Positions 1,926 to 37,029 of a DNA stretch of 64,000 bases are shown one piece after another. Position 1 is the first letter of the stretch. Every line of letters starts with the position of its first letter. Origin of the DNA: Ectocarpus siliculosus (Eukaryota; Sar; Phaeophyceae; Ectocarpales; Ectocarpaceae); NCBI GenBank assembly GCA_000310025.1, contig FN648440.1, forward strand, positions 26,144-90,143. Direction: 5' to 3'. A program made the translations under genes and the position numbers. The notes under the pieces are model-generated. The model was given only the letters and a program-made list of their open reading frames with translations. It had not been told where the DNA came from and did no database searches.

Positions 1926-3065
1926 AAAAGGCGGAGCAAAGTGGCTACGTGTGCACAGGCTTATAGTGTCCCTGCCACACTTTTACAGCTTCGTGTCACA
2001 CGCATACGTTATGCGCGGTGCCACAGACAGGTCTAGTTGCAGCTGCTGCGTCCCCTCTCTCCTGTTTTTCCCCTTCCTTCTTGATGGCAAACGTGGTCCC
2101 CGGCAACGAACTCCCACCACAGCAACAACCTGCGCGTACGTCCCACGAGAGCGCGACAGAGAGAGGTAGACGAGCGTTGTGAGGCCCCATGGACCTATGA
2201 TACCCCTGCTGCCCTTGTACAGCAGTGGGTCTCACATGCCTAGGGTATTCTCGGTGCCGCAGCAACCCACCCTGGCAGCTACATAGATAGCTGCTGCCGA
2301 GTCCTGTCCGTTTGTGTGTGTGTGTGTTTTTTTGTTGCCAAGATGACGTGGCGCCCCTCCAACAACCACAAAGAAGTACAACAACAGCGCAAGCAAGAAG
2401 ACAGAGGGCAGCCAAACTCCGTGTATGTCTTTGGCCTGGTCTGCTTGGACTGTTTCCCTTGCTATCTCTGTTCTCGGCGTAGTTGTGTGGCCGCAACAAT
2501 GGGAGCAAAAATTGTTGATGTTGAGTCGAAGACCCACCTACCTCCCTCACCTGCTTCCACAGCGCACATATGTGCATACATCTTCAGGAAAGGAGCAGTA
2601 GCCTACGGGTCATGAGTAGCACTTCTAACGGCAGGAAGCCAGCGCTGCCGCTACCTGAACTCATTCCAGCGTTGAAGTAACGTCATCCCCATGAGGCTAT
2701 CGATAAACTCGCGCACACCGACGACTCTGTACTGCGACTACACAAGCTACAAAATAGCTAGGTGTTCCACCTCTACGCAAATGACACATGATACCACCCA
2801 CCCCACCGACCGATTGTCAAATGTCGACAACGCCACGGGACGGAGAAGACGATGTCGAAATTAAATGGTGGAAAGCTCTCGACAGGACGGCTAGAACGCC
2901 GCCGGTTGCGGCACCGCCACACCTTCTTCTGTGTCTTGAGAAATCGAGCTTTCTTGCTGAAAATCTTTGCAGGGTGTGTGTGGTATCTTGTGTCACCAAC
3001 GGTGCATGTTGTTGTGCACACAAATACCTGCCTCTTTCTCGGCAAGCAAGACAGCACTCCATAAT

Positions 3066-3085
3066 CTACATGCAGCTGCATGTAG
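3066..3085. repeat. Perfect 20-base palindrome in the left TIR
   Basis: CTACATGCAGCTGCATGTAG is its own reverse complement. An identical copy lies at 34204-34223 in the right arm. Confidence 0.8.
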
Positions 3086-4264
3086 CCACCACAGCCGTGT
3101 AGGGCCTGGTGTTTTCAGATACCAATGCAGCAGTAGTAATATAAAAAGTAGTGTGTTCGAGTGTACACTAGACGTACGTGCTTCCGTAACCCGTAACAGC
3201 CCCGGGTTGGGTCTGGTACGCACGTTCATCAGTTACGTACGGTGTAGGCACCCAGCAGTAGTAGCACAGCGGCAGCAGTTTTTTGCGCCTATTCTAAAGG
3301 AAAATATGTTATCTGCCACGGCGTTTGTTTGTTGTCTCGACGGCAGATGAGACTGGCTCGCGCGATGGTATCTCGGTGGCGAAACTTCAAGCGAGGGCAT
3401 TCGGCGGGTTGGCTTGGTGGATGACAATGGCGAAGCAGAGTGTTCGCTGGCCGTGAGGTCGTTCCAACACGCGCAAGCAAGGTGAACGGCCAAGAAAGAT
3501 CAGCAGGGTTGGTTGTGGACTCTAGCCAGTCCTACTTGTATGTAGCTACGAGAAGAAGCTTATTGCTTTGGTTTTGAAGGCGGTCGTGCATAATGACGGC
3601 TGTTCGCATGTTTTGTCGGCGGCTTGCAAGAGGTTCCCTGCAATCCGACCGTGCATCTAACCGACCGAGCGGGGTGTTCAAAACGTACGACATCATGCTT
3701 GCGCGAAACCCCTTTTCCCCAGGGCATCTTGAGAGAAGTTGTCGCGGGATCGTGTGTGCCACAGAAAAAAAAAAATGTTCCCAGAGAACCAACTAACTGA
3801 TGAAATGTGAGAACGCTAAGCCCGCACTGCGGACAGGCGCACGGCCCCGCTACTACTGCCTATCGAGCTCGATAAAAATCCCCATTATTCAGTACTCGCC
3901 ATCTACTGCTGTAGGACCTCGCATTTCGTTGTCTTACACCACAAACATGAAGGCTCAAGCGTGCCTATCCCGTCGACGACGAGATGAAGCTTCAGCGTTA
4001 CGGTAGTGGGCCGGGTGCCTTCGACACACACAGTTTCGGCGCGAAACGGGCGGTTCAAAACGTCTTGGTTTCGGGCCGGCCCGGGATAGCATTTACGCTC
4101 CAAGAACTGAAGGGTGTTGCTTCCACACGCGCGGCATTTTTTTTTTTTGACAGGTACAACCACGCACAGACCGGGCGGACTCTTTGGAGAAGCGAAACTT
4201 GGGGTGCCGTGACTGCCTCTCGGACGAGCCGTTCGCTCGAAGCTATTTACTGTCGTTTGGGAGG

Positions 4265-4730
4265 ATGGCTAAAGCGTCGGTTCCAGACTGCTCCTTGGGA
4301 GGATGGATGTACATAAAGACGAAGGCCGTCGTGGCCGCGTTTATTATGTAGGTGTGTGTGGTGCCCTTATTTTTAGGCATGTAGAAAGGTGTTGTTGGGG
4401 AGGATTACTTACTTCTCAACCGCCGTTTCAGGCTCCTGTTGGGATGGTGGATATGCATAAAGACGGAGGCCGTCGTCGCTGCATTTTTTCTTGGGGGGGG
4501 AATGCTGCCCCTTTTTTTTGAGGAATACAGTTGGTGGGGAGGATGACCCAACCGTCGTTTCAGGCTGCTGCTTGGGAGGACGTAGATGCATGCATAAGAA
4601 TGGGGGCCGTCATTGCTGCGTATTATTGTTTATATTAGGTGCGTATGCTGACCTTCTCCTTTGAAGCATGTATACACTTGTTAATGGGGAGGATGACTTA
4701 CAACTCAACCGCCGTTTCAGGCTGCTAGTA
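4265..4730 (+). repeat. Subterminal tandem array in the left TIR
   Basis: Four imperfect units start near 4273, 4422, 4554 and 4713, with a period of about 130-157 bases. Each has a CCGTTTCAGGCTSCT core; the first three are followed by a CATAAAGACGGAGGCCGTCG-like block, and GGGGAGGATKACTTAC separates units. Repeats of this kind near element ends are often transposase-binding sites. Here that is inference. Confidence 0.7.
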
Positions 4731-6060
4731 TATCTGGGAAGAGGGAAACACCAAAACTGAAAGCCGGAAAGTAGGTGCTGCTTCCTTTCGTCTAACGTGT
4801 GTATAGTCTATGCTTCCTTCTTTTTTTACAGCAAGTAAGAGGGCAAACGTTCGTTGCCAAACTGCCTTCAATAGAGTCGGTGTACGTGCTGACATGGCTT
4901 ATTCGTCGACGTATGTCGGCTGCTAGGTTTAGCGGTGTGTAAGCTGGAAGTTCGAGGTACTGACAGCTTCTTCGCGGCGGGTGATTGCTCGAAACCTCGT
5001 GAATTGATACGCCAGCATGGAGGACAGTTAATTTGATCTACTTCGTTTTTTTGCATACCTTTACGGCGTGGTGGTGCGAGAGGACTCCTTGCCGAGCTGG
5101 AAGTTGTAATTGGGTGTTGACGTACCCATGAAATCGAAAACAGTGCTTGAAAATCCCAGATCGACTGCTGGTTGCTGCGCTTTCGAAAACGCAAGGAAAA
5201 AAGGCATTGGACGAAACAGAGCAAATTATCTGCTGATTGAATCCTTCTTTCTCTCCTGCTTCACTTAAAACTACAGTTAGCAACCAGGCAACATCCAGGC
5301 AAACCGCCGGGTGACCGTTCGAGAAAAAAAAAAAGTCCAGTGTCTACGTATCTCCTCGGGAGCGACCCGGTTGGTGTACACTGGCTCCTACAACAATAAA
5401 TACATGGGAAGATACACAACACTACACAAAAATACCAATCAATGTACAATACTTACTGCCATCCCTGACCACCCAGTTTTGCTGCCTCTTGTCAGTCATG
5501 CACGGAAGAAAATTGTCAGTGTTAAACTCCCGCACGAAAAACGGGAGGAGGCCTACCATCACACGACCGATATGCAGTGTTACCTTCCTTAGAATCAGCC
5601 GACATCGAGGAAAGAAATTATACATGTCGAGTTCTATCGCTACACCCTACGTACACCGCTCGCTGTTAACCAATACTTCCACAGGGCAAAGAACGGCAGT
5701 CAGTTTATCCAGCTACGAGCATACATACCTCCTCGAACTGTTGCTGACGAAGCTTTCAGAAGCAACGCGTCGACGGCAAACGCCCAGTCCATACTGGCCA
5801 GTCCGTCTGTTTTTGTTGAGTCTTCACGCCCACTACTTCCAACGTGATGTACACGCACCCAGAATAATTCACCGTACCTACAATTTACCCACATGATATT
5901 TTACATTATCATCAACGACGGTGGCTCCACGTCCTGCTCCCCGACGCAAGTCTGGCCCCTATGTTAGACCGTACACCGATGGTGGAATCCTACAGTCGTC
6001 TCAACCCCATGTTAATGTTCTACTCGCTCCGTGCTTCCAGCTGCACCTCTACAGTATCGT

Positions 6061-6723
6061 CTATGTCCCACCACTGGCACCCCCGCGCGTGGTGTTGCCA
6101 CTCGAACTTGTTCTAATCGCTGAATACAGGTTCCTCCTCTCCACCACTGGCATCATCATTGTCAATGGCAGAAAGTCGTTTAGCGTTGCCACCGGAGTCA
6201 TCGCTTCATAATAATCGTCCTTGTCCAGAGGACCACCGTCGTCGCCGTCGATGTCGCTGGTGCTGTTTTCACCGTCGTGGAGGTAGACGGCACTGCCTCC
6301 GGGCCTGACGAGGACCGGCTGGGCTTCAGAAGTGTTAGTCACCCCTTTGTAGATTCTGAGCTTGATGGGAGTCTTGGGGTTATCCTCAGCATCAAACCAC
6401 AGGGCATGAGTGTCAGACTTCTTCTTGTCTCGTGGAACTTCGGACAAAATCTCGTGGTGGGTGAAGGGATCGCTAGATTCCCATCGCGCGTAATAGGCGG
6501 GGCATGTTTTCGCGACGCGCATGTAAAGCGTGGCCCCTGGCGCGACGAACTCCTTGCCTGGAACGAGCATTTGTTTTAGCTGTGCGCTGTCGGCGACGCG
6601 GATAAGCCGAACAGCCCCGTCTACCCGGTCGGCGCGGAGTGACTCCCTCGCTTCCGCTGGTGAGAGGTGGATCTCCATGTCCCCCCAGATAGGAATCTCC
6701 GGGCCGTTCATTGCGTACTTCAT
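6061..6723 (-). CDS. 220-residue uncharacterised protein of the giant element
   Basis: This is an uninterrupted minus-strand frame ending in TAG at 6061-6063, only 108 bases from the inner end of the left TIR. Met at 6723 gives 220 residues; the frame also stays open upstream to a possible CAG acceptor at 6749-6751. The protein is mixed alpha/beta in appearance, with an acidic stretch (HDGENSTSDIDGDDGGPLDKDD) near residues 150-172, a Met/Pro run and a Ser/Gly-rich tail. I recognise no catalytic motif. It is the last gene of the leftward block, downstream of the methyltransferase-like gene. Confidence 0.55.
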   Translation of the reverse strand: MKYAMNGPEIPIWGDMEIHLSPAEARESLRADRVDGAVRLIRVADSAQLKQMLVPGKEFVAPGATLYMRVAKTCPAYYARWESSDPFTHHEILSEVPRDKKKSDTHALWFDAEDNPKTPIKLRIYKGVTNTSEAQPVLVRPGGSAVYLHDGENSTSDIDGDDGGPLDKDDYYEAMTPVATLNDFLPLTMMMPVVERRNLYSAIRTSSSGNTTRGGASGGT

Positions 6724-6752
6724 CTTCGGAATTGTGTAAAGGGCGTAGCTGC

Positions 6753-7234
6753 TGTCGTATCCATCCTAAACGTTTTCGTTGTTCAAAATACAAAGTGTTA
6801 GACAGAATAAACAAAGAAAGGAAGAAAGAAGCGCCGCCGCTAACAATGATACGGACGTTTGTCAGACAGATTCGTGTAGGTCTTTGGGGTAGTTTGGCGT
6901 AACGAAAAAAATGTATAGGAAGGACGAAAGCTGCCTAGGAGAGCATGAAACGACGCAACACTTAACATCTACCTCCCTAGAGTCAACATGGGAGGAATAA
7001 CACCAACGCACAAATGCATCAATCCGTGACTCCATGATCAAAACGGCCCAAGCAAGAAGAGGATGTACGTTTTTCCCCTGGAATCACCACATTGCTGTGG
7101 TTGACTACTAGATTACCCCGCGCTCGCAAACGGAGCAGCGGATACTAAATAACCTTCTGGGATTGGACACTAGTACCACCGTCGAAAATATCACCCCACG
7201 CTCTGACAAGGACAGCGTTCACCTGCACCAAAGC
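6753..7234. other. Spacer between the 220-residue gene and the methyltransferase-like gene
   Basis: I see no supportable coding sequence. The stretch probably holds the 5' region of the small gene and the 3' region of its upstream neighbour. Confidence 0.4.
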
Positions 7235-9296
7235 CTAGCCGACAGTGGAAGAAAGCTTGGAAGCAACCAAAGTCAAGACCTTGTCAGATGGCTCGTCACC
7301 AGTCTCGCCCGCTTCTGCCATCATGTCTTGGACGACGGTAGGGACGCTAGCTGGCGCGGAAGAACGAGGAACAGCATCCGGCAGATTCCCCGGACTTATC
7401 GTTCTCAAACCACCGGCGGGGTCCGGCTCCCGCTGCACAAAGAAAGGTTATCGCACATGATTTGGGTCAGCATAGGTAGGAGTACAAAGTCAGGAAATAA
7501 ATTGGTTAGGGTCAATAGAAAGAGTTGTATCAACAACCAGCCGCATCCTCGATCGCAGGAAGCTATAAGAAGGTACATACGACGTCGGACTCTGGGACGC
7601 AGCAGTAACTGAAAAACGGTGTGGTTGTATTCGAACTAACACTACTGTCCGTTGTCCTTGGCATGAAGGGGTCAGTATTGACGAGGGCAACATGAGTTGC
7701 CGCGGCGTGGCCAAGTTGAATCCACACGAGCCCGACACGCCCATGAAAGGTCCATTGAACACTAGCAGGAAGACTAGCCCAGAAACCCACTCCAGATTCA
7801 AGGTTGACTTAGGTGCACTTAAGGGCGAAAACATTGAGCTTGGGCCGCGGCCTCGTTCTGTACCAAATCCCTCACCTTGAACACGCCGTCTGCCCACGCG
7901 ATGTCGAAGGCGTCCTTCACGCGTTCTCGCATCTCGTCTACGTTTCTATCGTCGACTGGAAACACCTCCACCTTCCTACCGAGGGAGAGCGCAGTCTCGA
8001 TCGTCTTGTCTCGGTCGCCGCAGGTAGACACGACTGTGTCTTGCAGGTTAGTGAACCTGTTTTGTACATGACCGACACGACGATTGTGATTGGTAATTCG
8101 TCATGCCCAAGCAAGCGCTGAGAGCACAGGGGGAGCTTTTGGCGGAAAGGTTCGAAACAACCAGAACGAAAATCGGCTGGGGATCACGCACACACATTTA
8201 ATGATACCATACCAGCAACGTTTACGTCAAGTACAAGGTGGCAAGGTATGACGTGCATAAACATCGGCTATTTCGAGGAAAACGGGAAAAGTGTTCTGCA
8301 CTAATACCCTCAGTTCCATACTTTGACAGACCCACAGCTCACATTGATTCACAAAAAGCCAAGAGTCAAGTGACAGCATCACGCCCACGAACCTGTTGAT
8401 ACACATGGTCAGGAGGCGAGGGGGGAACGGTGATAGTGCATTCTCGAACGGCACCGCCTTCATGAGATTAAGACAGGGACCCGACGAAGATTCAGCACCG
8501 TGGACGTCATCGGCGGTCACGGTTTGGTTGCACGTGAACCTGACGCTAGGGATGCTATCGCCCGTCGTGGCTTGGTGAGCCACGAGAAACTGGTGAACCC
8601 TTCCGGTAAGGTGACGACGGTCCGATTTGTGTCCTGGGCGCCCGCCTCCCCGGGACTCGAACTCTACCAGCATAGGATGGTCCTCAACCTCCAGTGCCGT
8701 TCCCGCTTGCTTGAAAGCACCTGTGCAACAGGCAACAGACATCCATTCAATAAGTCGCTCACTCCAAAATCCAAAATGGCAGCGATACACGGCCGAAAAT
8801 CACTGCAGATAAAACCATAACCAATCAAATTAGGTCACGCTAGCTTAATGTGGCACGCCCAAGCGCCCCTGCACAGCACCACGCCCTCACGATGACGTTG
8901 ACAAATACATACGTCTGTTGTGAGTATACTGCCTAACTGCTGGAACTATCCATTCGTGAAGACTCTCCAAACACAGAAAGAAAACTCACCAGCCCAGCGG
9001 TGCGCGTGTTCGTAGACCGGCGTGGGAAGATCACAGACGACAGTACCGGACGCGTGAAGGCTACCGGACGCGACCAGCGCACGGGTAAGGTCGCGGATGC
9101 GGGCGAGAGTGGTCGCGTTGTCGGGTAAGAGGGTCTTGTCGGCACCGGGGTTGAGAAACAACAGCTTCGCAGGCTCCTTCGTCCCCACGTGCGTCAACAG
9201 GTCGTCGACGCCGACGCTGTGGCTGTAGTACACCCTCTCGTGGACGTGAGTGTTTTGGTCCGTGATTATCATCAGGGGACAAGTAGCAAAATACAA
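7235..9296 (-). CDS. Probable DNA methyltransferase-like protein (beta-class, N4/N6-like)
   Basis: Exons read by eye are 9296-8990, about 8790-8393, 8056-7876 and 7432-7235. The last three join in phase: ...LLTMCINR/FTNLQDTVVSTCGDRDK..., then ...GVFK/REPDP..., with TAG at 7235. The joined core has the layout of the C-terminal half of beta-class amino-methyltransferases. A charged GHKSDRRHLTGRVHQF stretch and a lysine/proline segment come first, then a motif-I-like strand-loop (TVVSTCGDRDKTIETALSLGRKVEVFPVDD), where the usual D.F.GSGTT is replaced by STCGDRDKT. The DPPY-type motif IV expected earlier is not clear; LLFLNPG in exon 1 is the nearest candidate. The junction between exons 1 and 2 is unresolved. 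It could be a degenerate or repurposed enzyme. The neighbouring ParB-like gene strengthens the reading, because ParB-like domains and DNA methylases are often paired in prokaryotic mobile DNA. Confidence 0.45.
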
Positions 9297-9781
9297 TCAG
9301 CCAGGATCGTACAACGACCGAAAGTGTTTAAAGCAACGTAGGGCCAACAGCGCGGCCCCGTAATGTCCTAGCACACAACCTAATCGTTTCACTGGACACA
9401 AGAAAATACAAGCAATACGACCGATATGTAGTGTGTCATAAAATGGCAGTACAGCATCACATGCTCACTTCAGAAAGCTTTTCATGTCGGCGTCGGACTG
9501 GTCTTCCTCGGGGAATGCGGCGACCTTGTCGAACACATCGTGCATCTTCCGCCTTTTCTTCTTTTCCCCGCCACTTCCACCCTTCCCGTCCTTCTCGGGA
9601 CAAGTCTTGCACTGCATTTTCGGCAGTCTCACGCCCTCGTCTGAGTAAGCATTTTCCACCAACGGGCAAAACATTCTGTGGTGCATGTTGCACTTATGGC
9701 AGGACCACCTGATCGAGTCGGCGTTGTGGGAGGAAGAATGTGGTTGCAGTTACTGTTGGGCGCACCGACAAAACGAGCTCC

Positions 9782-9866
9782 ACCGAAACGAGCAGCAAGA
9801 AAAACTATCTGAATCGCGGATACCGAAACGAGCATCAAGAATACCATCTGAATCGCGGATCCCATA
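9782..9866 (+). repeat. Two-unit 42-base tandem repeat in an intron
   Basis: CCGAAACGAGCAKCAAGAA...ATCTGAATCGCGGAT occurs twice in succession within the intron between the last two exons of the ParB-like gene. Confidence 0.7.
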
Positions 9867-12587
9867 ATCCAATGTATACCTTACCTGTTGTCCGGCTCCG
9901 GTTTACACGTGCCGCATCGGATGAGCGGCGACTCGTTGTTGTCCTTCCTCCTCCCTTTCCCCTTCCGCTTCCCGTCGTCGTTGTTCTCATCGTCCTCGTC
10001 CTCCTTCTCCTCCTCCTCCTCCACCACCACCACCACCACCTCCTCCTCCTCCTCCCCCCCCCCTTGGGTTTTGCTCTTCCTTGCAGTTCGTCTCCGTCCT
10101 TTCGCCCCTCTACTCCCTCTCCCTGCTCCCCCCCACGACTTCCCTTTCCTCTTGCGCTCGGAAGGGCGTTTCATGGGTTTCGCCAGCTGCAGCTTCTTCC
10201 TCGTAACCGCATTCTTCGCCTCCTTGAGCCTCTCCATAAAATCCTCGTACGATGGCCGTAGAGAGGCGTCGGACTCCAGAATCTTCACTCAAGATACGAG
10301 AACAAAAAATGGCAAACAGCACAGAAAAAATCGCGTAGCAGCGCAAGGTAGTTATACATCTCAACATTCCATTGAACACAAGTGTCATCGCGACCATCTG
10401 GGCACGACTTGAGCGGGACGCAGCCGTTACAGAAGTGGCAGAGATCGTGTGTTGATAGGGCCAGACGATCAGTCAGACTAATGTATCTGCATGGACAATG
10501 TTATGCCCGCGATGCTTATTGGGCCTTAAGCTTGCGCTCACTAGCACATCACGGCACATTACTTCAAGGACTATGGGGGAGTGGGGTGGCCAACGAGAGT
10601 TATTGACCGATACTGTAGGGAAACGACCTTTTTGATCCTGCTGGGCTGCTGCGAGCGAAGGGTCTGGACGATCCATTCCTCAAGCTTGGGGACGCTATTA
10701 CTGCCGTGCTGTGGGAGACCTTTGCTGAGCTTCAAAACCTCATCCTCGAGACCGTCGAGGAAGGCTTTCTGGAACGACTACAAAGCAGGCTTCGCGTAGG
10801 CCATATTTTCGAACTCGCTGTTGGATAGATTTAACGAGGGGGCGACGACGGGACGAATGGCAAGAATTGCGAGGGGCACAATCATGGGTACCTAGGTGTC
10901 AACTGCATCGATCAGACATGCGAGGTACCCGTTCCTGGACAGGAGTTTGTCAGAGGGCTGAGACGTTCCTTGCGCTGCCTAAGAAAAAAAACGTGGGTAC
11001 CTACCTTTTAAGCTCCTGCGACCAATCCTGGTAAGGCACGATGCCACAAAGGGCGAAGTACCATTGTGCCACGTCCTTGGCCTGCGCAATGATCGGGGGG
11101 GTGTCGACGTCCGCCTTGAATGCTCTTCCTTGCTGGAACTTCTTCCACCTGACACGTTACAAGTACATCGTGGATTTGGGTTCGATGATGGGGGAAGAAC
11201 GTGAAGTTGGGATCATGGTCCATAGATCATGGTCGAGAGAGTGGATTCCGCGGGAACGAAGAAATAACGGTCCGTCGGAGACAGGTACTGCCAACGGTAA
11301 GCTGACCTTCGTTGCTGCTGTAACAGTCGCGTACGTCTATCTAGCCCAACATTACCTGGCCAGGATCTGCAGATTGAAGCCCTGCTCCTCAGCTGAAAGC
11401 GCCATGAAGTCATCCTTGCTGATGTAAGCTAGGGTGACGAGGTTGAGGTCGATGGACTTATCTTCGGACTCGACCAGGTCCTTTAGGGCGGTGAGTGCTT
11501 CTTCTTTGATGCCCCTCACGGCCTTCAGCCAGCTGCGAAGCGTGGAGTCGCTGGGGACCGCCTGCTTTGCCTGAAGAAGCGAAAGCGACAACCAGATAGT
11601 TACTGATGCTGCTGCTGATACACAAACCATTGAGCGGGGGTATTGTGCAATTAGTATGTACTACTACCGCATGAGCTACGGCAAGTACACAGAGTATTCC
11701 ACACAACAAAACGATACCACTGCTACGTCGATCGGTGAAGAACATCCGTTCGATATAGGGTTGTTGTTGACTTTTCATGATCATCTTCTGACCAAACACG
11801 TGCTTACCTTCGCGTAGCATTCCTTGATGTCCTTGGGGTTCACTTGCCTACTACGGGACCGCGACGTTTCCAGGGAAGCCTGTGCTCCCTTGTAGAGGGA
11901 GCTGAAGAAGTACAGCCGATCGTAGATAGTGCGTTCGGCGAACGTCGAGGTGGCATCATTGCACGCTGAGGAGTAGTAAAGAACAAACAGGAAAAAAGGT
12001 CAGAGCACTTGAATGTTGAGTGAGATAATGGTGTATTAGAGGGAATCCACGTGTTGTTGAAATGACGTGAAATATTGACATTTCAGGAAGTTTTGACGTG
12101 ACGAGGTTACGCCGCGTTTTTGGAGGCAAACTCTGACGGCGAAATTTTTGTGAAAAAGCGTCAAAACTTAAACCGACGCGAAAAGATTGACACTTCAAAT
12201 ATCGCCAGACTGTGGCTCACACACTCTTGCTCTGTGCTCTGTTACCATCACCAAATCACGAAAGGAGCGCGGTCAGCAGCGAACACATTGGCCATGCCTA
12301 CTGATTGCTCCTAGCGGTCCTGCACATACACGTCTCGGCAGTTCTCACGGCGGCCCAGTGGCCGGACTCGCGTGTTCGGCGCGCGCGTTCGGTAGATGAG
12401 CCATCGCGATTGATTTCGCACGGGCTTTCAGCAGCAAAAAGCGGCATAGGCAGTACTCGGGGGAGTCCCGCCCTCGGAGGGAGCACATATAGAGGATTAC
12501 GGGAGGGTACACGGACTTGGCCAGTCAGTAGGTGCATTTCGCCCGCCCCCTCACGGGGTTCGGTGCTCTGCTGCCGCAGTGACATCG

Positions 12588-12630
12588 GTACACAGCAGTA
12601 CACAGCAGTACACAGCAGTACAGCGAGCAG
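12588..12630 (+). repeat. (TACACAGCAG)n simple repeat
   Basis: Four near-perfect 10-base units, in the long presumed intron of the ParB-like gene. Confidence 0.8.
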
Positions 12631-13754
12631 CTGCCTCACTCATCAGCAACGAACGGCAGTTTGACGCCTGGGAAGTCGCCGCGGCGAAAGAGAGAAGGTC
12701 GGCGGGATGCGGCGGAGGGGTACACCTAGTCTCCTGGGAGCCTGGGAGTGTGAGTCTTTGCTTCAGCATGTCGACCCTGGGTGGCAGCCCGAACCAACCC
12801 GGGGTCGTGAACATGACTGGCGTTAACGCGTCAACTCTACTCCATCCACCATTTTTTTTTTCCTCCCACGTGCCAACGGGCACACGCGGTGCGAATTGTT
12901 TCCCGTCAAAACCCTCAACCGTTACTTGATGTTGGCGTCAATCCTCAAAGGTCAAAATTCCGCGTCAATCCATAGTGGATACCCTATATTGTTCCAAGTA
13001 TATGTGTGTGTGGACATCGTCAAACATCGACCCCCTAGTTGTTTTCGGATACGTCAATACGAACGATTCAGCAGCAGCAAGAAAGCCGTAGGACTCGTAA
13101 GATACCGTGGTATGTATGCATACTACTGCGCCAACACTACAAACATCATGTTTAGTCTAGCAACAGCCATGAACTCCCACTCTGCCACTATCCTCTTCAC
13201 GTTTGCGTCCTTGATATCCGAGTAGCATTGGCACGGGACCAGAAAATCACCAGGCTTGACGGCCTTGAGGGCTACTAAACGATGGTTCCCGTCCAAGACG
13301 CTGGCGGGCCCGGCTTTGTCGGCATCCTCTTGTGTGAAAGGCGCTTGATGAACCCCTTTGAGTATCACAGAAAGCGGCTGGTTCTCCATGAAGTCCTGGG
13401 ACTCGATCGATTGTTGAAGGAGCTTCACGCTCTTTTGGCTAATCTGCCGAGCGTGGCTCGTGTTGATCAGCCTTTCCAGTGCGATGTAGTCCATCCCGAG
13501 GCTACGCTCCTTCAGGATACCTCCCGCACCCGCTCCATCGTGAAGATGGACAGAAGAAGATGCACGCCGACCGCTTCCTCCTGTTTCCTGCTGGTATGAT
13601 GCTCGTCGTTCTCCTCCCCTGCCGCTACTGCTGCTGACCTCGTCGAAGATGCTCGTACTGGTGCTGAGGCTGGCGCTGGTGATGCCGATGCCGGTGCCGA
13701 TGCCGGTGCCGATGCTGGTGGTGGCGCCGATGGTCCGCCAGCCTCAGCGGACGC

Positions 13755-13870
13755 AGCCGCGGTGGCAGCGGAAGCATCGGAGGCAGCGGACGCAGCCGCG
13801 GTGGCAGCGGAAGCATCGGAGGCAGCGGACGCAGCCGCGGTCTCAGCAGCAGCAGCAGCAGACGCTGCTG
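13755..13870 (+). repeat. 39-base coding minisatellite in the ParB-like gene
   Basis: A GCAGCCGCGGTGGCAGCGGA-type unit repeats two to three times. On the minus strand it encodes Ala/Ser-rich repeats (SAASDASAATAA), the low-complexity N-terminus. Confidence 0.75.
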
Positions 13871-13913
13871 CCGAAGCAGCGCGAGTCCCGCGTGAACGGC
13901 CGGCGTGACTCAT

Positions 13914-17283: not shown

Positions 17284-17322
17284 ATACATACATACATACA
17301 TACACACATACATACATACAAC
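17284..17322 (+). repeat. (CATA)n microsatellite
   Basis: About nine CATA/CACA units in the intron after 17176. Confidence 0.85.
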
Positions 17323-23685: not shown

Positions 23686-25040
23686 GGGCTACATCCTCCT
23701 CGTCGATAGCTCGCCGACGGCGCTTCTCCCGGCGTTGCGCTGCGATCCCCCTGGGATCTTGACGCTTCCCACGCTCAGGCATGGTAGTGGAGTTGCCTTG
23801 GGAAGCACTTTGAGGTGCTGTTGGTGCTGTCTAGGTGTGGTGTGATGAAGACAGCACGCGTGACCGGTGTCTGCTCCGGTAGCCGAAAAAAAGCGGGAAA
23901 TTTTTCACCGAACAGTAAAAGGAGCAAGCCCCCAAAAAATACGCCTTGCTCTTTTTACGGAAACGTAGAGGAACGCCTCCATATATTTCAAGAAAATACG
24001 GTTTCGTAACCAAATACGTATTTTTTCGGCCTGATAAGACACAACCTAAGTCGATATATATATTATATGTGTTTTTGCTTCACAGCAGGACAACTTCAGG
24101 TTGACATTTTTGTTTGACACCACCGGAGGCCGGTGGATCTTTACGAAGTCCATGTTCCGTTTTATTTTTTTTAACGATTTTACCCCGGAGACGCAGGAAA
24201 GGATAAAATGAATGGCAACATGTACCACTTCGTGACGTCACATAGATAGGATGACAAAAGAAAAGTTGGAAAAGAAGAATACGGTAACCTGTAGTCTATT
24301 TCACATTAAATTTGTTAGTACACGCCGGACTTCTTCCACACATCTGGGTTAGAATCCAAACACCAAACTGGAAATACCCTAATATTATCGATCGCCCTCG
24401 ACAATTTGGGACGTTTGCCACCAGTTCGTCGTGCTCCGGCGTCCGACCCATTGAATATACCTCCTGGAGTGAGTACGCGAACAACTCATCACAACACTAC
24501 ACCGTAGTTCTCCACCAGAAGACCCAAAAACGTGTCGCAGGCGCTGCCAATTGAAATGGCTTTCTTCTTTGATGTACCCGCGAAGATTTGCATCTTTTGG
24601 GGACGGCTGCAGTGGTTATTCAATCAACTGCCATCACACTATTATAGACACCCCGTGAGGATGATGCGTACTGCGGAATTACAGGAAAGACCGAGTACGT
24701 GTTGGAGTCCATGCCAACTGCAAAGGGCAACAAAAACCATGATCGTGCGCCTGAGTGTCCCAAACATGTAATACTATCAGGTTGAAACAGCCGGACGCCA
24801 AGTGTGGAAAAGGCTCGTATGACCCGACTTTCGGTGCACATCAGCATCAACTGATGAAGTAAGCAGTATGACACCGACACAGCAATCGGGAAAATTTGAA
24901 TATTTTTATTGGGCCTTCCTAAAGATTCCGAAAGACGACACGCACGTCGTTCACACGTCCAGCCCCACCAATAGGTTTCTAGCGCTCAACCTTACCACAC
25001 AGCAACCCAGTGATTTACCACGCACTGTACACCCCAACTC

Positions 25041-27590
25041 ATGACCGATCCAAGAGATCGCGGCAACAACCGCCGTCGAGACGACACAAACACAAGGAAC
25101 CGCCGGTACCGAGTTGTCAACGCCACCGACATAAACACGCGTCGAGGGGCTCAGCGTGCTGCCTCCGCCGATGCTCTCAACGCCCATCGTAGAGCACAAT
25201 ATTCCGCGTCGGCAGAGGCCATCAACAGCCGTCGTAGAACTCGCCATGCCGACAGAGCACAACAGCTCAACGCCGCACGTCGACGGCGTAGAGCGACCGT
25301 CATCAACAACAAAAGGGGGTTGCCCTTCAACGACATCTTTCACGCCGAGGACGACTCCACCTCACTACGAGCCATTGTTGGAGACCGCCAGCGAGCCTTG
25401 GAGGAGGCGCGACGAGACCAGGGCATCACAGCGCAGACCGGAGATCCTTGCCGGCATTGTGGCGCCAAACTGTTCGCTAAAGAGTCCAAGGGCATTTGTT
25501 GCAAGAATGGGAAGTACATCCTCCCGCGACTGCCGCCACTACCCCCTTCATTGAAAGAATTGTACGATTCTCCGGAGCCATCAGCGCAGAGGTTCAGGAA
25601 GGAATCGAGGATGTATAACTGCCGATGCAACTTCGCCTCGCTCAACGTGGAGGATGGTGAACTCAAAAAAATGTTCGGTGACCATCTCGTGTCTGTCCAA
25701 GGGAGGTGAGATCGATTGACATGTGCAACGATATATGCTACAATTGTATAATGAGGTATAGATTCATTCGTGTGGTCTTTCATTTCTATTTTCCTTGGTG
25801 GTTTAATACACGTTTGATTCGTTCGATAGCATATAATTGAGTGTAGATTAGTTCGTGTGATCTTTCGTATATATCTTTATTCGTGTTACAAAATACAATA
25901 CATCCATATAAAAGCGTATTTTCGTCTTTTCTTCTGTACGACGCAATACCCGAACACCTTCCGATACAAAAAACAATGTCACTAACATCAACAATAATTT
26001 CCCTCCTCCGTTCATATTCCATTCACACACCGCATCACAAGTTCGTACATCCTGCGCTCTCCCCCATGTACACCGTTCCTGCCCATCTCTTTGGCCAGAA
26101 CTTACCATTCTGTTCGAGACGGCGGCCATTCCAACGTTCAATGGCTCCTACATGACCTCAACTTCGTCTCTAGCCACCTCGACAAAGGGACCATGACGAC
26201 GATACTGCGCGAGTTGCGATCCACATCACCCTATGTCGGACGCCTCAAAGCCGCCATGAGCACTCGGTGGGTGCCTACCGTCACGACCTATACTTAAAGT
26301 TAGACTACAGCAAAATATTCGAGTATCATTTGGCTCTGTTAGACATGTCGAACGTGCTTCCTGCTGCCAACATCCCCACATACCACTTCGTATCCATATT
26401 GTGCATATGTTTCTATGATATGTTGGGAAGGTGCAGAACGGGAGTTTTGTTTGATCCATCCGTTCTACTTCTCACGTATCTGGTGCGAATCATTCTACAT
26501 CATTTCCACTTCCACCGTTCCTTTTCCAGGACTGAATCGGCTGCTATTTCGAGCACCTTGGCATTCTCCGCGCCTGGTGCACCGTCGTCAGAAATGATAG
26601 CTGTGGACACCCGCAGCAGGGGGGTCATGCCTACAGACAAGACCACCATGACGAGGACGCTCACAGGGGAAATAAACACCATCAGTTACCTCAATCGTAA
26701 CTATTTCCCTTTGACATACGTCCTGCTGTTTCCGCACGGTGGGGAATCCGGATGGCACCCCGACCTGAAGAGCACGACCGGTCGAAAAATCACGTTAGCA
26801 CAATGGGTAACCCAGTTGTTGTTCAGGGAACCACGATTCGAGAAACTGGGGCCATTGGTCAACGAATTTCTCATCGACGTTTTCAGTTGCATCGAAGATC
26901 AACGACTCTCGTTCCACGCACATAACCAAGACAAGTACCGGACGTCGATGCACCACGCGTCTGCAGTTGCGCAACGTTACCGGCAACCGCAGCCCCACCA
27001 CGATCCCGTCGATGCCATCATCGTCCCATCGAGTTTTAGCGGGGGATTCGCCGACCAAGCGAAGAAGCTGACGGAGTCCATGGCGATTCTACGCCACTTC
27101 GGGCGGCCATCATACTTCCTCACCGTCACGTGCAACACAGTGAGTCCTTACGGTACGAACACGTGTACGACACAAGTATACCGACAGACAAAACCTTCCT
27201 GTTTGTATTCACTAAACATCCACATATCTATCTCATCCTTCGCACTCCGCAGGAATGGCCGGAGATACAAGAACGATTACATCCGGGACAGACGGCTTTC
27301 GATCGCGCCCAACTTTGCGCCAGAGTGTTCAAACAGAAACTCGATGCCCTGCTCAAGGTGATTACATGTTTTCCTTGCGTTCGGCCCCATCGATTATTCG
27401 TGTCACGACTCATACGACGTCCATAGACACTCCGCCTATCGATTCCACATCGTGTACATGTCGCATATCTCCTGGCGGAAACATTTTCACTCACAGATCA
27501 TTCCTACCCCCCCGAACTTCGACCCCACAGATTTACCTCAAGTCTTCGGCAGAATCATCTTCAGGATCGCGGTCATTGAATTTCAGGTGA
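25041..27590 (+). pseudogene. Truncated Helitron Rep-helicase gene
   Basis: Exon 25041-25707 has an Arg-rich N-terminus with an 18-residue-like repeat (NARRR..., SADALNAHRRAQYSASAEAI) and then the Helitron zinc motif CRHCGAKLFAKESKGICCKNGKYILPRLPPLPPSL. Later exons (about 26090-26270, 26530-27140, 27250-27360, 27520-27585) carry the Helitron_like_N landmarks: VDTRSRGVMPT, LNRNYFPLTYVLLFPHGGESGWHP, IEDQRLSFHAHNQDKYR, IIVPSSFSGGF, MAILRHFGRPSYFLTVTCN, EWPEIQERLHPGQTAFDRAQL and FRIAVIEFQ. The frame ends there at a CAG/GTGAAT donor. The next conserved block (KRGLPHAH, holding the HUH histidines), the catalytic tyrosines and the helicase are all missing. Clear ends (5' TC, 3' hairpin plus CTRR) were not found. 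Confidence 0.75.
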
Positions 27591-27649
27591 ATTCCTCTGC
27601 TACCAAGGTCTGTCTACGTCATTTTGGGAGCGGCTTTCAAACTTTTCGT

Positions 27650-28905
27650 TGATAAGTCTCCGTGTGTCCTTTTCCGCACATGAGTAATATGCGGTTATTA
27701 CCTTTTCTTTCGCTTCCACGATGGGTCTTTTATCACCCCGTCTTGCATTTCTGCGGACCTGCGTTATCAAGAAGGATTGGGTTCAAGTCCGACTTGTTTC
27801 CCCCCTTCGCTGCCTTTCTCTATCTTTCATTACGTACTGCATGTGTGCCGTTTCATCGGCGTCGGACTCCTCGATACTGGTGGATTACCTGTTGCAGATA
27901 AAGGGAGTTCCTTTATTCCGAGAGAGCCATACGTCGGCATCCGGCCTTTACATGTTTTTTATGCATTCTTCTCCTGATGAGTCTCCGTGTCACTTTTTCT
28001 GCGCTTGAGTCACATGCAGTTATGACCTGCGCTTTGACTTTCACGATGGGTATTTCACCCCGTCTTGCATTGGTGAGTACGTGTGTTATATAGAGGAGCG
28101 TTCAAGTCCTACTTTTCCCCCCTTGCGTTTCCTTCCCCTATCCTTCTTTGCGTGTCGCAACTGGGTGAGTCCTCGTCGTCGGCCTCCTCGATACTTGTGC
28201 ATTACTTGTTGGAAATTGTGGGAATCCCTTCCCTTCATTCCGAGAGAGCCATAGGTCGGCATCCGACCTTTTCATTTCAATTTGCATAGTTCCCCTCGTC
28301 ATGTTTGCCGTTACGATTACCATCGATGCTTAAGCGCGTATGTCTTCAATCTTCTTAGCCGGCCTTCCGACTCCTCCCTGATAAGTCGCCGTGTCAGCTT
28401 CTCCGCGCGTGAATCATGTCCAGTTATGACCTTCGCTTTGACTTTCACAATGGGTATTTTACCTCCGGGTCTTGCATTTCTACTGTAGTGTAGGTACCTG
28501 CGTTTTGAGGAAGGACTGCGTTCAAGTATCATTTTTTTCCCCTTGCGTTTCCTTCCCCTGTACCTCTTCGCGTACCACATGTGTGTCCTTCATCGTCGTC
28601 GGCTCCATACTTGTGGATTGCCTCTTGGAAATTCTGGGAATCCCTCCATTCCAAGACAGCCATAAGTCGGCATCCGGCATTTTCTTTTTTTGTATGCATT
28701 TTTCTTCTTGTGCACTTTTTCCGTTGCGCTTGCCATCGTCGCTTAATTACATGTTTGTGTCTTCAAACTTTCGCAGCCGGCCTTGAAACTTCTTCTTCAT
28801 GAGCCTCCGTGGTAACTTCTCCGCGCACGGGTTATATGTAGTTATGTCCTGCGCTTCGACCTTCATGATGGGTATTTTACCTCCCCGTCTTGCATTCGTG
28901 AATAC
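27650..28905 (+). repeat. Tandem repeat of about 400 bases, four units
   Basis: The block TGATRAGTCTCCGTGTC...CCGCGC recurs near 27650, 27976, 28380 and 28798, with spacings of about 325, 404 and 418. It is followed each time by CTTYSACGATGGGTATTT..CC.CGTCTTGCATT and, in complete units, GCGTTCAAGT, CCTTGCGTTTCCTTCCCC and AGCCATAGGTCGGCATCCG. Units differ by many substitutions. The array directly follows the last Helitron exon. Confidence 0.7.
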
Positions 28906-29646
28906 CTGCGTCATACAGAAGGTCGTTCCACGACGCAAACATCGACGTCTCTTTTTTCTTTTCTTCCCTTCGCACTCCTTCCTTCCGGCACTTCTCACAC
29001 CAACTTCAAACGTGGGGTGCAATTTGCTCTCTTCGTACCTTTCTTGTCGGCAATCTCCATCATAATGTGCATAATGTGTACTTCGGTTTTTCGGCTTTAC
29101 AATTTCCGATAGACCAGACTATGGACTCACACGTCTCTTCCCCCTCCGCAGGACCGCGCGCTCGTCGAGGGCCGAAAATTCTTCACAAATTCCTTACCTC
29201 TCCACTTCTTCCCCCTACAAATCCTCTACCCTTCTTCTTCTTCTTTGCTTCCCCACGGACACTCACTACCATCGGGCCGGGATGTTGGCCCCCAGGCCCA
29301 TTGGGGGGCGGGGGGCCAATCCTTAACCCTAGTGTATGTTTACCATGGAAACAATCAATTAACACGTTGTCCGAAACATATTCTCCCACATTGCGTGCTT
29401 CATGAAGGGAGCAACCTAGTGTGCACGGCGTTGTACCTGCAACTCATGAAGCTCGTCGAGGACTACGGCGAAACCCTTGAGGACGTTGTCTTTCAGGTGG
29501 ACAACACGGTGGCGGAGAATAAAAACAACTACTTGCTAGGGTGCTTGGGGCTGCTGGTCGCGAGGGGTGTGGTGAAGACGGCAACGCTGATGTTCATGCA
29601 GGTCGGCCACACGCACATCATGATCGACCAGATCTTCTCGAGGTGA

Positions 29647-29860
29647 GTATCGGAGAAGGAAGAAGAGACGGACGACACTTTTCTAGGTAACATATTAGAG
29701 TATAGTGGAGTATAGTGATTTACGCAGCCCTGTCGTTTGTTGCTGTTTGTTGTTTATGCTGTTTAGTCTGCCCTATCCTTACTGCAACCGAGTAGGCCAG
29801 TCCCTGAACGCATATTACCTTTTCGCATCTGTTCGTTTCCTTTTAACCGTCGCCACGAAG
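29647..29860. other. Intron of the DUF7869-like gene
   Basis: Bounded by GAG/GTGAGT at 29642 and an AAG acceptor at 29860; T-rich, with an ATAGTGGAGTATAGTG duplication near 29700. Confidence 0.6.
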
Positions 29861-32540
29861 ATTCGGTACAGCTGTTAAGGGGCGCAACATCTTCACGAGA
29901 AGTCATCTAGCTGTCGCTCTCCGAAACGCCTACGACACCCTGCCGGTACACGTGACGACGCTCGAGAATCTGGGGAACTTCAAGGAGCTGCTACTAGGAG
30001 CGACCAGCAGGGTCCCCCGCATCACGGCCTGGCGGGCCTTTCGGGTTCAGATGCAGGGTGGTGCTTGCGTCGTCGAGGTCAAGCGGGCCATGCACCATGA
30101 GCGTTGGTTAGGATTCAGCGCAAACGGGAAGGAGGTGGGGACGGGAGACGGATTTTCTCCGCATAGGCTGTTCTTCCAAGGCTCTGTGCGCATCGAAAGC
30201 TTACCTTCATACAAGCTCAAGACGGTGGACCCCCATACGATTCACATGATCAAGCAGCGGTTCGAGGCGTCTCATTCGAGGATGGCGGCGGCGTTCCCGG
30301 GCGGTGAGTACACATATGAAAATGGCTGCTGTTACTGTTAAATTGGCTACCATCTGGGTCCCCTCGGGGCTACCTTCTGATGTCCTCTACGGCGATTTTC
30401 TGTTTATTTTTTTATACAATGCTAGAGATACTCAACGTTACTGACTGCCAGCAATAGTAGGTACACGTTTTAGTCGTGGTGTTGTCAATTCGACAAACTC
30501 GTGTGCCACTTCCCTTGACGTATTCATTTGTTCCGGTTCTCTCCTCAGATCCAGCCCGAGTCCAGGCGCTCAAACAAGAGCAAAGGCGGCAACTTCTTCT
30601 CCTTGAGAGGAAGGGCCATCTTCTGCCTGATCTCCCCGTGGATTGGCTACCCGATATCATACGGGAGGGATGCGACGACTCCGACGAAGGCCTGCACGTT
30701 GGAGGAAATGACGACGGCGCCAGCGACACAGACGAAATCCAATCTGACCACGACAGTTCTGAAGACTAAGACGAACACGGCCACTGTGCTGCGGCCGGGA
30801 GAGTGCAGGGGCGGTTGCCGGTGAAGGGAACCGATGGCAACCAAGGTCGTCATCATGCCACCATTGGCAGCTTCGGGTTTTTGTTGGCGGATGAGGCACC
30901 CTTCCTTGTTGGAAAGATTGATCGGGAAAGGACTGGTGAAGGAGGCGAGCGCGAGGTTTGTCTGCACTGGTTCACTCCCAGTGCCCGCTTAGTGAGTCAG
31001 GCGTCGTCGGTGGAATTCGAAAAGTACGGCCGGGCCGTCTTCAGCCAAACGTTCATCAGTCTTCCGGTTGAGGCAGTAGCAGGGCAACGCCAAAAAAAAC
31101 AGTATGTCCCGGACGAGGGGTGGGAGCCGGAGTCTGGTATTGTGACGACCTGCCGTTTGTTGAGGAGGTCGAAATACGTTCCTGCGACTGTGCTCAAGGT
31201 GTTGCGTGCTGCGAAAATGGCCTCCCAAGGATAGAAGACGTGAGCAAGAGGTCTATTTGTACTCCAGTAAAAGCACTGCTTGTGTTGTAAGCGTCTACAC
31301 GCGAGACTTGCGTCGGGCAGCAGGACGTGGAGCCACCGTCGTTGATGATAATGTAAAATATTTTTGTAGAGAGCCATGTAGGTAAATTGTAGGTAAGGTG
31401 AATTATTCTGGGTGCGTGTACATCACGTTGGAAGTAGTGGGCGTGAAGACTCAACAAAAACAGACGGACTGGCCAGTATGGACTGGGCGTTTGCCGTCGA
31501 CGCGTTGCTTCTGAAAGCTTCGTCAGCAACAGTTCGAGGAGGTATGTATGCTCGTAGCTGGATAAACTGACTGCCGTTCTTTGCCCTGTGGAAGTATTTG
31601 TTAACAGCGAGCGGTGTACGTAGGGTGTAGCGATGGAACTCGACATGTATAATTTCTTTCGTCGATGTCGGCTGATTCTAAGGAAGGTAACACTGCATAT
31701 CGGTCGTGTGATGGTAGGCCTCCTCCCGTTTTTCGTGCGGGAGTTTAACACTGACAATTTTCTTCCGTGCATGACTGACAAGAGGCAGCAAAACTGGGTG
31801 GTCAGGGATGGCAGTAAGTATTGTACATTGATTAGTATTTTTGTGTAGTGTTGTGTATCTTCCCATGTATTTTATTATTGTAGGAGCCAGTGTACACCAA
31901 CCGGGTCGCTCCCGAGGAGATACGTAGACACTGGACTTTTTTTTTTTCTCGAACGGTCACCCGGCGGTTTGCCTGGATGTTGCCTGGTTGCTAACTGTAG
32001 TTTTAAGTGAAGCAGGAGAGAAAGAAGGATTCAATCAGCAGATAATTCGCTCTGTTTCGTCCAATGCCTTTTTTCCTTGCGTTTTCGAAAGCGCAGCAAC
32101 CAGCAGTCGATCTGGGATTTTCAAGCACTGTTTTCGATTTCATGGGTACATCAACACCCAATTACAACTTCCAGCTCGGCAAGGAGTCCTCTCGCACCAC
32201 CACGCCGTAAAGGTATGCAAAAAAACGAAGTAGATCAAATTAACTGTCCTCCATGATGGCGTATCAATTCACGAGGTTTCGAGCAATCACCCGCCGCGAA
32301 GAAGCTGTCAGTACCTCGAACTTCCAGCTTACACACCGCTAAACCTAGCAGCCGACATACGTCGACGAATAAGCCATGTCAGCACGTACACCGACTCTAT
32401 TGAAGGCAGTTTGGCAACGAACGTTTGCCCTCTTACTTGCTGTAAAAAAAAGAAGGAAGCATAGACTATACACACGTTAAACGAAAGGAAGCAGCACCTA
32501 CTTTCCGGCTTTCAGTTTTGGTGTTTCCCTCTTCCCAGAT

Positions 32541-33000
32541 ATACTAGCAGCCTGAAACGGCGGTTGAGTTGTAAGTCATCCTCCCCATTAACAAGTGTAT
32601 ACATACATGCTTCAAAGGAGAAGGTCAGCATACGCACCTAATAATACGCAGCAATGACGGCCCCCATTCTTATGCATGCATCTACGTCCTGCCAAGCAGC
32701 AGCCTGAAACGACGGTTGGTTCATCCTTCCCATCAACTCTATTCCTCAAAAAAACGGGGCAGCATACCCCCCCCAAGAAAAAATGCAGCGACGACGGCCT
32801 CCGTCTTTATGCATATCCACCATCCCAAGCAGGAGCCTGAAACGGCGGTTGAGAAGTAAGTAATCCTCCCCAACAACACCTTTCTACATGCCTAGAAATA
32901 AGGGCATCACACACACCTACATAATAACCGCGGCCACGACGGCCTTCGTCTTTATGTACATCCATCCTCCCAAGGAGCAGTCTGGAACCGACGCATTATT
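32541..33000 (-). repeat. Subterminal tandem array in the right TIR
   Basis: Counterpart of 4265-4730; cores (AGCCTGAAACGRCGGTTG) near 32549, 32702, 32834 and a diverged one near 32980. Confidence 0.7.
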
Positions 33001-34203
33001 AGCCATCCTCCCAAACTACAGTAAATAGCTTCGAGCGAACGGCTCGTCCGAGAGGCAGTCACGGCACCCCAAGTTTCGCTTCTCCAAAGAGTCCGCCCGG
33101 TCTGTGCGTGGTTGTACCTGTCAAAAAAAAAAAATGCCGCGCGTGTGGAAGCAACACCCTTCAGTTCTTGGAGCGTAAATGCTATCCCGGGCCGGCCCGA
33201 AACCAAGACGTTTTGAACCGCCCGTTTCCGCCGAAACTGTGTGTGTCGAAGGCACCCGGCCCACTACCGCAACGCTGAAGCTTCATCTCGTCGTCGACGG
33301 GGGAACTGAACAACTATCCCCTAGGCACGCTTGAGCCTTCATGTTTGTGGTGTAAGACAACGAAATGCGAGGTCCTACAGCAGTAGATGGCGAGTACTGA
33401 ATAATGCGGATTTTTATCGAGCTCGATAGGCAGTAGTAGCGGGGCCGTGCGCCTGTCCGCAGTGCGGGCTTAGCGTTCTCACATTTCATCAGTTAGTTGG
33501 TTCTCTGGGAACATTTTTTTTTTTCTGTGGCACACACGATCCCGCGACAACTTCTCTCAAGATGCCCTGGGGAAAAGGGGTTTCGCGCAAGCATGATGTC
33601 GTACGTTTTGAACACCCCGCTCGGTCGGTTAGATGCACGGTCGGATTGCAGGGAACCTCTTGCAAGCCGCCGACAAAACATGCGAACAGCCGTCATTATG
33701 CACGACTGCCTTCAAAACCAAAGCAATAAGCTTCTTCTCGTAGCTACATACAAGTAGGACTGGCTAGAGTCCACAACCAACCCTGCTGATCTTTCTTGGC
33801 CGTTCACCTTGCTTGCGCGTGTTGGAACGACCTCACGGCCAGCGAACACTCTGCTTCGCCATTGTCATCCACCAAGCCAACCCCCCGAATGCCCTCGCTT
33901 GAAGTTTCGCCACCGAGATACCATCGCGCGAGCCAATCTCACCTGCCGTCGAGACAACAAACAAACGCCGTGGCAGATAACATATTTTCCTTTAGAATAG
34001 GCGCAATAAACTGCTGATGCTGTGCTACTACTGCTGGGTGCCTACACCGTACGTAACTGATGAACGTGCGTACCAGACCCAACCCGGAGCTGTTACGTGT
34101 TACGGAAGCACGTACGTCTAGTGTACACTCGAACACACTACTTTTTATATTACTACTGCTGCATTGGTATCTGAAACCACCAGGCCCTACACGGCTGTGG
34201 TGG

Positions 34204-34223
34204 CTACATGCAGCTGCATGTAG
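34204..34223. repeat. 20-base palindrome in the right TIR
   Basis: Identical to the palindrome at 3066-3085. Confidence 0.8.
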
Positions 34224-35340
34224 ACTATGGAGTGCTGTCTTGCTTGCCGAGAAAGAGGCAGGTATTTGTGTGCACAACAACATGCACCGTTGGTGACACA
34301 AGATACCACGCACACCCTGCAAAGATTTTCAGCAAGAAAGCTCGATTTCTCAAGACACAGAAGAAGGTGTGGCGGTGCCGCAACCGGCGGCGTTCTAGCC
34401 GTCCTGTCGAGAGCTTTCCACCATTTAATTTCGACATCTTCTTCTCCGTCCCGTGGCGTTGTCGACATTTGACAATCGGTCGGTGGGGTGGGTGGTATCA
34501 TGTGTCATTTGCGTAGAGGTGGAACACCTAGCTATTTTGTAGCTTGTGTAGTCGCAGTACAGAGTCGTCGGTATGCGCGAGTTTATCGATAGCCTCATGG
34601 GGATGACGTTACTTCAACGCTGGAATGAGTTCAGGTAGCGGCAGCGCTGGCTTCCTGCCGTTAGAAGTGCTACTCATGACCCGTAGGCTACTGCCCCTTT
34701 CCTGAAGATGTATGCACATATGTGCGCTGTGGAAGCAGGTGAGGGAGGTAGGTGGGTCTTCGACTCAACATCAACAATTTTTGCTCCCATTGTTGCGGCC
34801 ACACAACTACGCCGAGAACAGAGATAGCAAGGGAAACAGTCCAAGCAGACCAGGCCAAAGACATACACGGAGTTTGGCTGCCCTCTGTCTTCTTGCTTGC
34901 GCTGTTGTTGTACTTCTTTGTGGTTGTTGGAGGGGAGCCACGTCATCTTGGCAACAAAAAAACACACACACACACAAACGGACAGGACTCGGCAGCAGCT
35001 AGACTATCTATGTAGCTGCCAGGGTGGGTTGCTGCGGCACCGAGAATACCCTAGGCATGTGAGACCCACTGCTGTGCAAGGGCAGCAGGGGTATCATAGG
35101 TCCATGGGGCCTCACAACGCTCGTCTACCTCTCTCTGTCACGCTCTCGTGGGACGTACGCGCAGGTTGTTGCTGTGGTGGGAGTTCGTTGCCGGGGACCA
35201 CGTTTGCCATCAAGAAGGAAGGGGAAAAACAGGAAAGAGGGGACGCAGCAGCTGCAACTAGACCTGTCTGTGGCACCGCGCATAACGTATGCGTGTGACA
35301 CGAAGCTGTAAAAGTGTCGCAGGGACGCTATAAGCCTGTG

Positions 35341-35697: not shown

Positions 35698-35700
35698 TAA

Positions 35701-36964: not shown

Positions 36965-37029
36965 TAAGTTAGAGAATTCCTTGTTTGTTGCAAAAACACT
37001 GCAGTAATCGAGCTATGCAGGAAATGTTT

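Follow-up and report, generated by a model that had tools for sequence, protein, structure and literature searches.

Giant DNA transposons of the KDZ, EnSpm and Sola-1 groups, mostly carrying nested insertions, have been described in Ectocarpus (Dinatale et al. 2025, PMC12477816). One of them, the 21.5-kb Sola1-1_Ec32 of Ectocarpus sp. 7, contains a ParB-like/methyltransferase gene of 1,104 amino acids (aa) on the strand opposite the transposase gene. Here we describe an element on contig C460 (FN648440.1) of the Ectocarpus siliculosus assembly GCA_000310025.1, which extends into a stretch of 64,000 nucleotides (C460:26144-90143) that we call the window; positions given without a contig are window positions. 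The genome searched comprised 189.5 Mb in 492 contigs, the coordinates for the window, C141 and C206 all refer to this assembly, and the comparison covers this one genome. The element spans 48.3 kb and is very probably a real giant transposon of the cut-and-paste type, originally of ~22.1 kb and swelled by nested insertions. We consider it likely that the locus as a whole represents a ~22.1-kb transposon with 4.4-kb inverted ends starting AACAAGG and a TGTT target duplication, which would encode a DUF7869 transposase and a ParB-like helper and would be kin to Sola1-1_Ec32.

A preliminary description of the window had suggested that the element might belong to an undescribed class. This suggestion is not supported: in the 21.5-kb Sola1 family (PMC12477816) a gene of this kind lies on the strand opposite that for the transposase, and, as judged from the published description of that family, the element most likely belongs among the relatives of Sola1-1_Ec32 and not to a new class. 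Kinship is favored because size, layout, host group and 4-bp duplication all fit: both elements come from brown algae, the net lengths are 21.5 kb and ~22.1 kb, the gene opposite the transposase gene encodes 1,104 aa in the one and an estimated ~1,200 aa in the other, and giant families in the Sola1-1_Ec32 genome commonly carry nested insertions (PMC12477816). The likeness is one of description, and the methyltransferase motifs look degenerate in our element. As to Sola2, PMC3627910 gives target duplications of 4 bp and extra genes, as found here, whereas the inverted repeats of Sola2 are 12-13 or 21 bp long, compared with 4.4 kb in our element, and its targets are AT-rich. Nothing nearer than PMC12477816 was found in the literature searched. 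Relative to its compared parts, the present analysis newly places the ends exactly, identifies an empty target sequence, describes arms of 4.4 kb and the insertions nested in the element, and pairs DUF7869 with a ParB-like neighbor.

Within the window, positions 1954-5956 and 31301-35340 align in inverted orientation with 3,944 matches, 49 substitutions (98.8% identity) and 57 gap columns in 10 gaps. A 4-kb match of such quality cannot be chance, and the two near-identical arms of ~4 kb in the preliminary description are thus real. They do not end where the window alignment ends. In a comparison of the right arm with C141, similarity continues for ~360 bp past 35340, to about 35700, and for ~20 bp more beyond a 1.27-kb insertion. 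A genome search with 35300-35699 returned four matches, namely its own site, C141 (97%), an inverted match at C460:14848-15210 (99%) and a 41-bp piece within the left arm. The inverted match supplies the outer part that the left arm lacks in the window, and a 12.9-kb insertion separates the two. The left terminal inverted repeat therefore consists of an inner 4.0 kb (1954-5956, + strand) and an outer 380 bp (C460:14829-15208), separated by a 12.9-kb transposon. The right one runs from 31301 to 35699 (- strand), as delimited by the arm alignment and the C141 match, up to the 1.27-kb nested element, and its outermost 20 bp lie at 36966-36985 (- strand), where AACAAGGAATTCTCTAACTT reads inwards before the nested element begins. 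With nested elements excluded, the full arms measure 4,381 and 4,419 bp and share 4,320 matches, with 51 substitutions and 58 gap columns (98.8%). Separately, 2781-3004, a ~220-bp part of the left arm, resembles sequences scattered through the genome with ~70-72% identity, at more than 30 sites among the matches listed.

The true ends begin with AACAAGGAATTCTCTAACTT at C460:14829 (left, outside the window at what would be window position -11314) and at 36985 (right), a span of 48,300 bp that is reduced to ~22,119 bp without the four nested insertions; the part within the window occupies 1954-36985. Outside AACAAGGAATTCTCTAACTT, resemblance between the two arms and C141 ceases, save for one extra A common to two of the three, and the three termini have three different flanks. 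A genome-wide pattern search for AACAAGGAATTCTCTAACTT allowing up to three mismatches found five places: exact matches at C460:14829 and C141:18849, a match with two mismatches at C460:63128 (window 36985), which arise because the nested element begins after 20 bp, and one place with three mismatches on each of C128 and C143. The reversed AACAAGGAATTCTCTAACTT, used as a control in the same search, matched nowhere. The C143 match, at C143:87338, is a related, diverged terminus (first 48 bp 85% identical), for which a partner end was looked for and not found; the one at C128:33692 was rejected as a further terminus, having no additional arm similarity. Another relative of the C143 end region lies at C120:488-671 (82% identical to part of it). 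Further arm sequence, which the preliminary description had proposed to look for, is present as an arm on C141 and as an isolated 1.28-kb fragment at C30:322653-323930, which is 96% identical to 3245-4499 and has different flanks.

The target-site duplication, likewise proposed as a check, is TGTT, which directly flanks the element on both sides (36986-36989 on the right and immediately before C460:14829 on the left). Sola1 target duplications are 4 bp long as well, the length of TGTT. The insertion target is a copy of another repeat, and a further copy of the same repeat, at C141:45811-46169, has TGTT once and agrees with the joined flanks at 91% of 361 bp, i.e. an empty site. Four more copies of the target repeat that span the site (L018, L027, L032 and L050) are also unoccupied and read TGTA there. 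The locus thus combines kilobase-long inverted ends, a 4-bp duplication and an empty site with more than one insertion bearing the same end (C460 and C141, and C143 in diverged form), which bears out the identification as a giant DNA transposon.

The gene at 14672-31234 (+ strand), counted from the first ATG in its initial open reading frame (ORF), encodes a DUF7869 protein that is probably the transposase of the element. Its 3′ end adjoins the right arm, the last coding stretch ending (31231) ~70 bp short of the arm's inner end. P0016, an 850-aa relative (52% identical) whose source name, Undpi1, we interpret as Undaria, aligns with eight stretches of the window between 14807 and 31228 (14807-15193, 16468-16614, ~16895-17191, 17549-17710, 18018-18110, 29395-29640, 29808-30308 and 30488-31228), and a relative in Ectocarpus sp. 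CCAP 1310/34 is 79% identical. The window ORFs also match C206 colinearly, where seven exons and six GT-AG introns, picked by eye with the frame kept, give a 656-aa reading. Near 30767 the window copy has an in-frame stop, which is either real or removed by splicing. The family alignment contains the conserved motifs D-x-AN-Q, QxDNTxxENKN and VGHTHxxxDxxFS, which, with their conserved D, D and acidic residues, we take to be a putative DDE/D catalytic core. In a Pfam scan of five relatives, DUF7869 was recognized in four (not in P0019), and P0016 matched DUF7869 alone. An isolated 450-bp segment at C3:7294762-7295211 is 98% identical to 14273-14722, at the 5′ end of this gene, and 16179-16435 (~256 bp, between coding stretches) recurs with 76-89% identity at more than 30 dispersed places among the matches listed, and may be an intronic short interspersed element.

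The second gene, at 6116-13994 (- strand), comprises ~13 matched coding stretches, and its 3′ end adjoins the left arm, the last stretch ending at 6116, ~160 bp from the arm's inner end. Two proteins of Ectocarpus sp. 12 AP-2014 match it: P0028 in six stretches with 86-98% identity and one N-terminal stretch with 58%, and P0027, annotated as 621 aa, in seven stretches with 87-100%. From the annotated pieces of 593 and 621 aa, perhaps from different copies, the protein is estimated at ~1,200 aa. We call it ParB-like on the basis of a DGNHR motif, near which the only matches, weak and to the C206 ORF, were Pfam DUF1015 (E 0.041) and NCBIfam DGQHR (E 0.17). The methyltransferase-like label is our assumption from a resemblance of motifs, which by eye are degenerate in both the window and the C206 families. 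The parallel with the gene in PMC12477816 also entered into this label. The layout, a ParB-like gene opposite the probable transposase gene, is as in Sola1-1_Ec32, with domain names that have no significant profile match. In the C460 copy a coding stretch (10622-10819, - strand) contains an in-frame stop, which the C141 copy lacks in the six stretches compared. Because of this stop, the ParB-like gene of the C460 copy is probably broken and the copy not autonomous now.

The coherent set of genes abutting the arms in the preliminary description is partly upheld: two outward-running genes do end ~160 and ~70 bp from the arms, but the intervening genes are not part of one set, since 18265-29334 reads as a separate nested element, within which both the Harbinger-type and the Helitron-type genes sit. 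The pair itself recurs. On C206 a related pair is colinear with that in the window, with 30-64% amino-acid identity in the main stretches, and adjacent divergent pairs 3.9-4.5 kb apart are found on C106, C296, C206 and C94; the two genes of the window lie 15.6 kb apart, which shrinks to 4.6 kb when the 11-kb nested element is subtracted. C106 has two further matches in the same relative orientation, 25 kb apart. In all, the ParB-like ORF has 13 genome matches at 11 loci and DUF7869 has 12 matches. The ends of the C206 family were not found, the 18.5 kb of C206 covered yielding only a 24-27-bp inverted match. Conservation of the pair across 30-64% identity speaks for a joint role of its genes.

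Several points weigh against the transposon reading as set out above. What is empty is a paralogous copy of the target repeat and not the C460 locus in another strain. Only one complete and one partial copy were found in the assembly besides the C30 arm fragment, and the partial copy, on C141, is without the equivalent of 5940-10038 and has no match past 14241. (Inside it, at C141:3122-11411, two identical 297-bp direct repeats lie 8 kb apart, resembling LTR retrotransposon ends.) DUF7869 has no curated transposase label, and a profile of it (A1) gave no match to solved structures in the Protein Data Bank up to E 10. The ParB-like gene has no significant match in Pfam, NCBIfam or the Protein Data Bank; in the last, P0028 had four weak matches, none to a ParB, and P0027 had none. 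Finally, comparison of ParB-like stretches of the C460 and C141 copies gave a dN/dS of 0.58 (10 synonymous and 20 non-synonymous differences in 463 codons).

Such weak constraint, together with the stop in the C460 copy, would also suit a ParB-like gene that is passenger cargo outside the transposition machinery. Among the matches listed, moreover, five of the 11 ParB-like loci (C141, C246, C50, C413 and C378) and six of the 12 DUF7869 matches (C23, C2, C362, C365, C33 and C125) have no partner. Against it, five contigs agree in neighbor, in orientation and in spacing (3.9-4.6 kb, once the 11-kb nested element is subtracted from the window distance), and we consider this alternative somewhat unlikely, though it survives better than the others. 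Less likely still is a transposon in which DUF7869 forms a transposase group apart from Sola1 and the ParB-like protein is an obligatory second subunit. The divergent pair, kept at 30-64% identity (C206) and on four other contigs including C206, points in this direction, and DUF7869 is not mentioned in the literature searched; against it, the size, the 4-bp duplication and the gene layout fit the Sola features in the compared parts of the published work. It is similarly improbable, in our estimation, that DUF7869 and its ParB-like neighbor constitute a two-gene transposition module of their own, with a transposase group not yet named, in which the ParB-like protein would spread on or mark the kilobase-long inverted ends and join them for the DUF7869 transposase.

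An inverted segmental duplication or assembly artefact, with no transposon at all, is very improbable. The single complete copy in an assembly of small, repeat-rich contigs could be read in this way, but the 4-bp duplication lies exactly at the arm ends and is accompanied by an empty target sequence, and more copies of the terminus exist on C141 and, diverged, on C143. An artefact is further unlikely because the arms differ, by 51 substitutions, and each holds a nested element missing from the other; an assembly palindrome is likewise rejected.

The left-arm insertion is a dispersed transposon of 12,888 bp (C460:15209-28096; its right end is 1-1953 of the window) that has flawless inverted ends of 21 bp, CACACGTAGCCACTTTGCTCC, is flanked by a CA duplication, and is here called EnSpm-like by its CAC ends only. 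Nine copies of this left-flank repeat were fetched (L034-L042; more exist among the matches listed), and in all nine, homology to the window ends at 1948-1955 with different DNA after each, which therefore makes 1954 the edge of another transposon. Both the right arm and C141 retain the uninterrupted insertion site, GGGGCGCCACAGGC. A 33.4-kb element with CACAGG termini at 1954 and 35340, as originally delimited in agreement with the limit of arm similarity inside the window, is accordingly hardly tenable, being refuted by the uninterrupted site and by the arm that carries on beyond the inserted transposon at C460:14848-15210; CACAGGCTTATAG, regarded there as terminal, is internal arm sequence, because an outer arm piece is found past the left-hand insertion.

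Three other insertions enlarge the element. A nested dispersed element of ~955 bp (12035-12991) is missing from the C141 copy, and the 1.27-kb element near the right end (35700-36965) has 36-bp inverted ends (94%) and occurs in at least 42 other places. The 11-kb element (18265-29334, + strand) carries a Helitron-like domain (26174-27361, +), a Pfam match from which, and not from its ends, its Helitron label derives, and a DDE_Tnp_4 ORF (21134-22075, -). Falling between the coding stretches that end at 18110 and begin at 29395, it lies within an intron of the DUF7869 gene. We treat it as a single element since its left and right end pieces are found jointly, with order and strand unchanged and 1.9 to 18 kb apart, on at least 13 other contigs (C1, C16, C24, C53, C71, C121, C131, C140, C166, C184, C214, C222 and C299); among the matches listed, C472 is ambiguous, and further contigs have one piece only. 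Elsewhere in the window, ORFs at 43528-44907 (-) and 60520-61056 (-) resemble by eye, respectively, the Gag protein of a retrotransposon, zinc knuckles included, and a reverse transcriptase of the LINE type.

The absence of a fit to CACTA, Harbinger or Helitron elements, as first described, is confirmed by the corrected ends and gene content. EnSpm/CACTA is rejected by the AACAAGG ends and by the lack of a CACTA-type transposase match in the Pfam scan of five relatives, Harbinger by the location of the DDE_Tnp_4 ORF inside 18265-29334 and a duplication of 4 bp, not 3 bp, and Helitron by the location of its domain in the same nested element, the main element having inverted repeats and a target duplication. 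Among 10 window ORFs scanned, none was a protein-primed polymerase, capsid or integrase of the Maverick/Polinton type. The KDZ giants of Ectocarpus and Chlamydomonas are similar in having up to ~30 kb, accessory genes and nested insertions (PMC12477816, compared parts); unlike them, P0016 matches DUF7869 alone in Pfam and no KDZ model, and none of the five relatives scanned had a KDZ match at E up to 1. The EnSpm giants of the same source are also large and algal, with CAC ends that are seen here on the nested 12.9-kb element only, whereas our element has AACAAGG main ends and a 4-bp duplication, and P0016 has no EnSpm transposase match.

We propose that an element of ~22.1 kb with 4.4-kb inverted repeats starting AACAAGG entered a copy of the target repeat with duplication of TGTT, that the DUF7869 protein, as a DDE-type transposase, would cut at the AACAAGG ends, and that the ParB-like/methyltransferase-like protein may bind or mark the element's own DNA and assist transposition. 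The case shows that nested insertions are able to put false ends on a giant element. For a giant algal transposon, the ends are hereby placed exactly and a target duplication is identified together with an empty target sequence; the uncharacterized DUF7869 is linked to a mobile element in which a ParB-like gene is its recurrent partner. The published suggestion that algal transposons carry proteins that bind and mark the transposons' own DNA (PMC12477816) becomes testable on defined ends.

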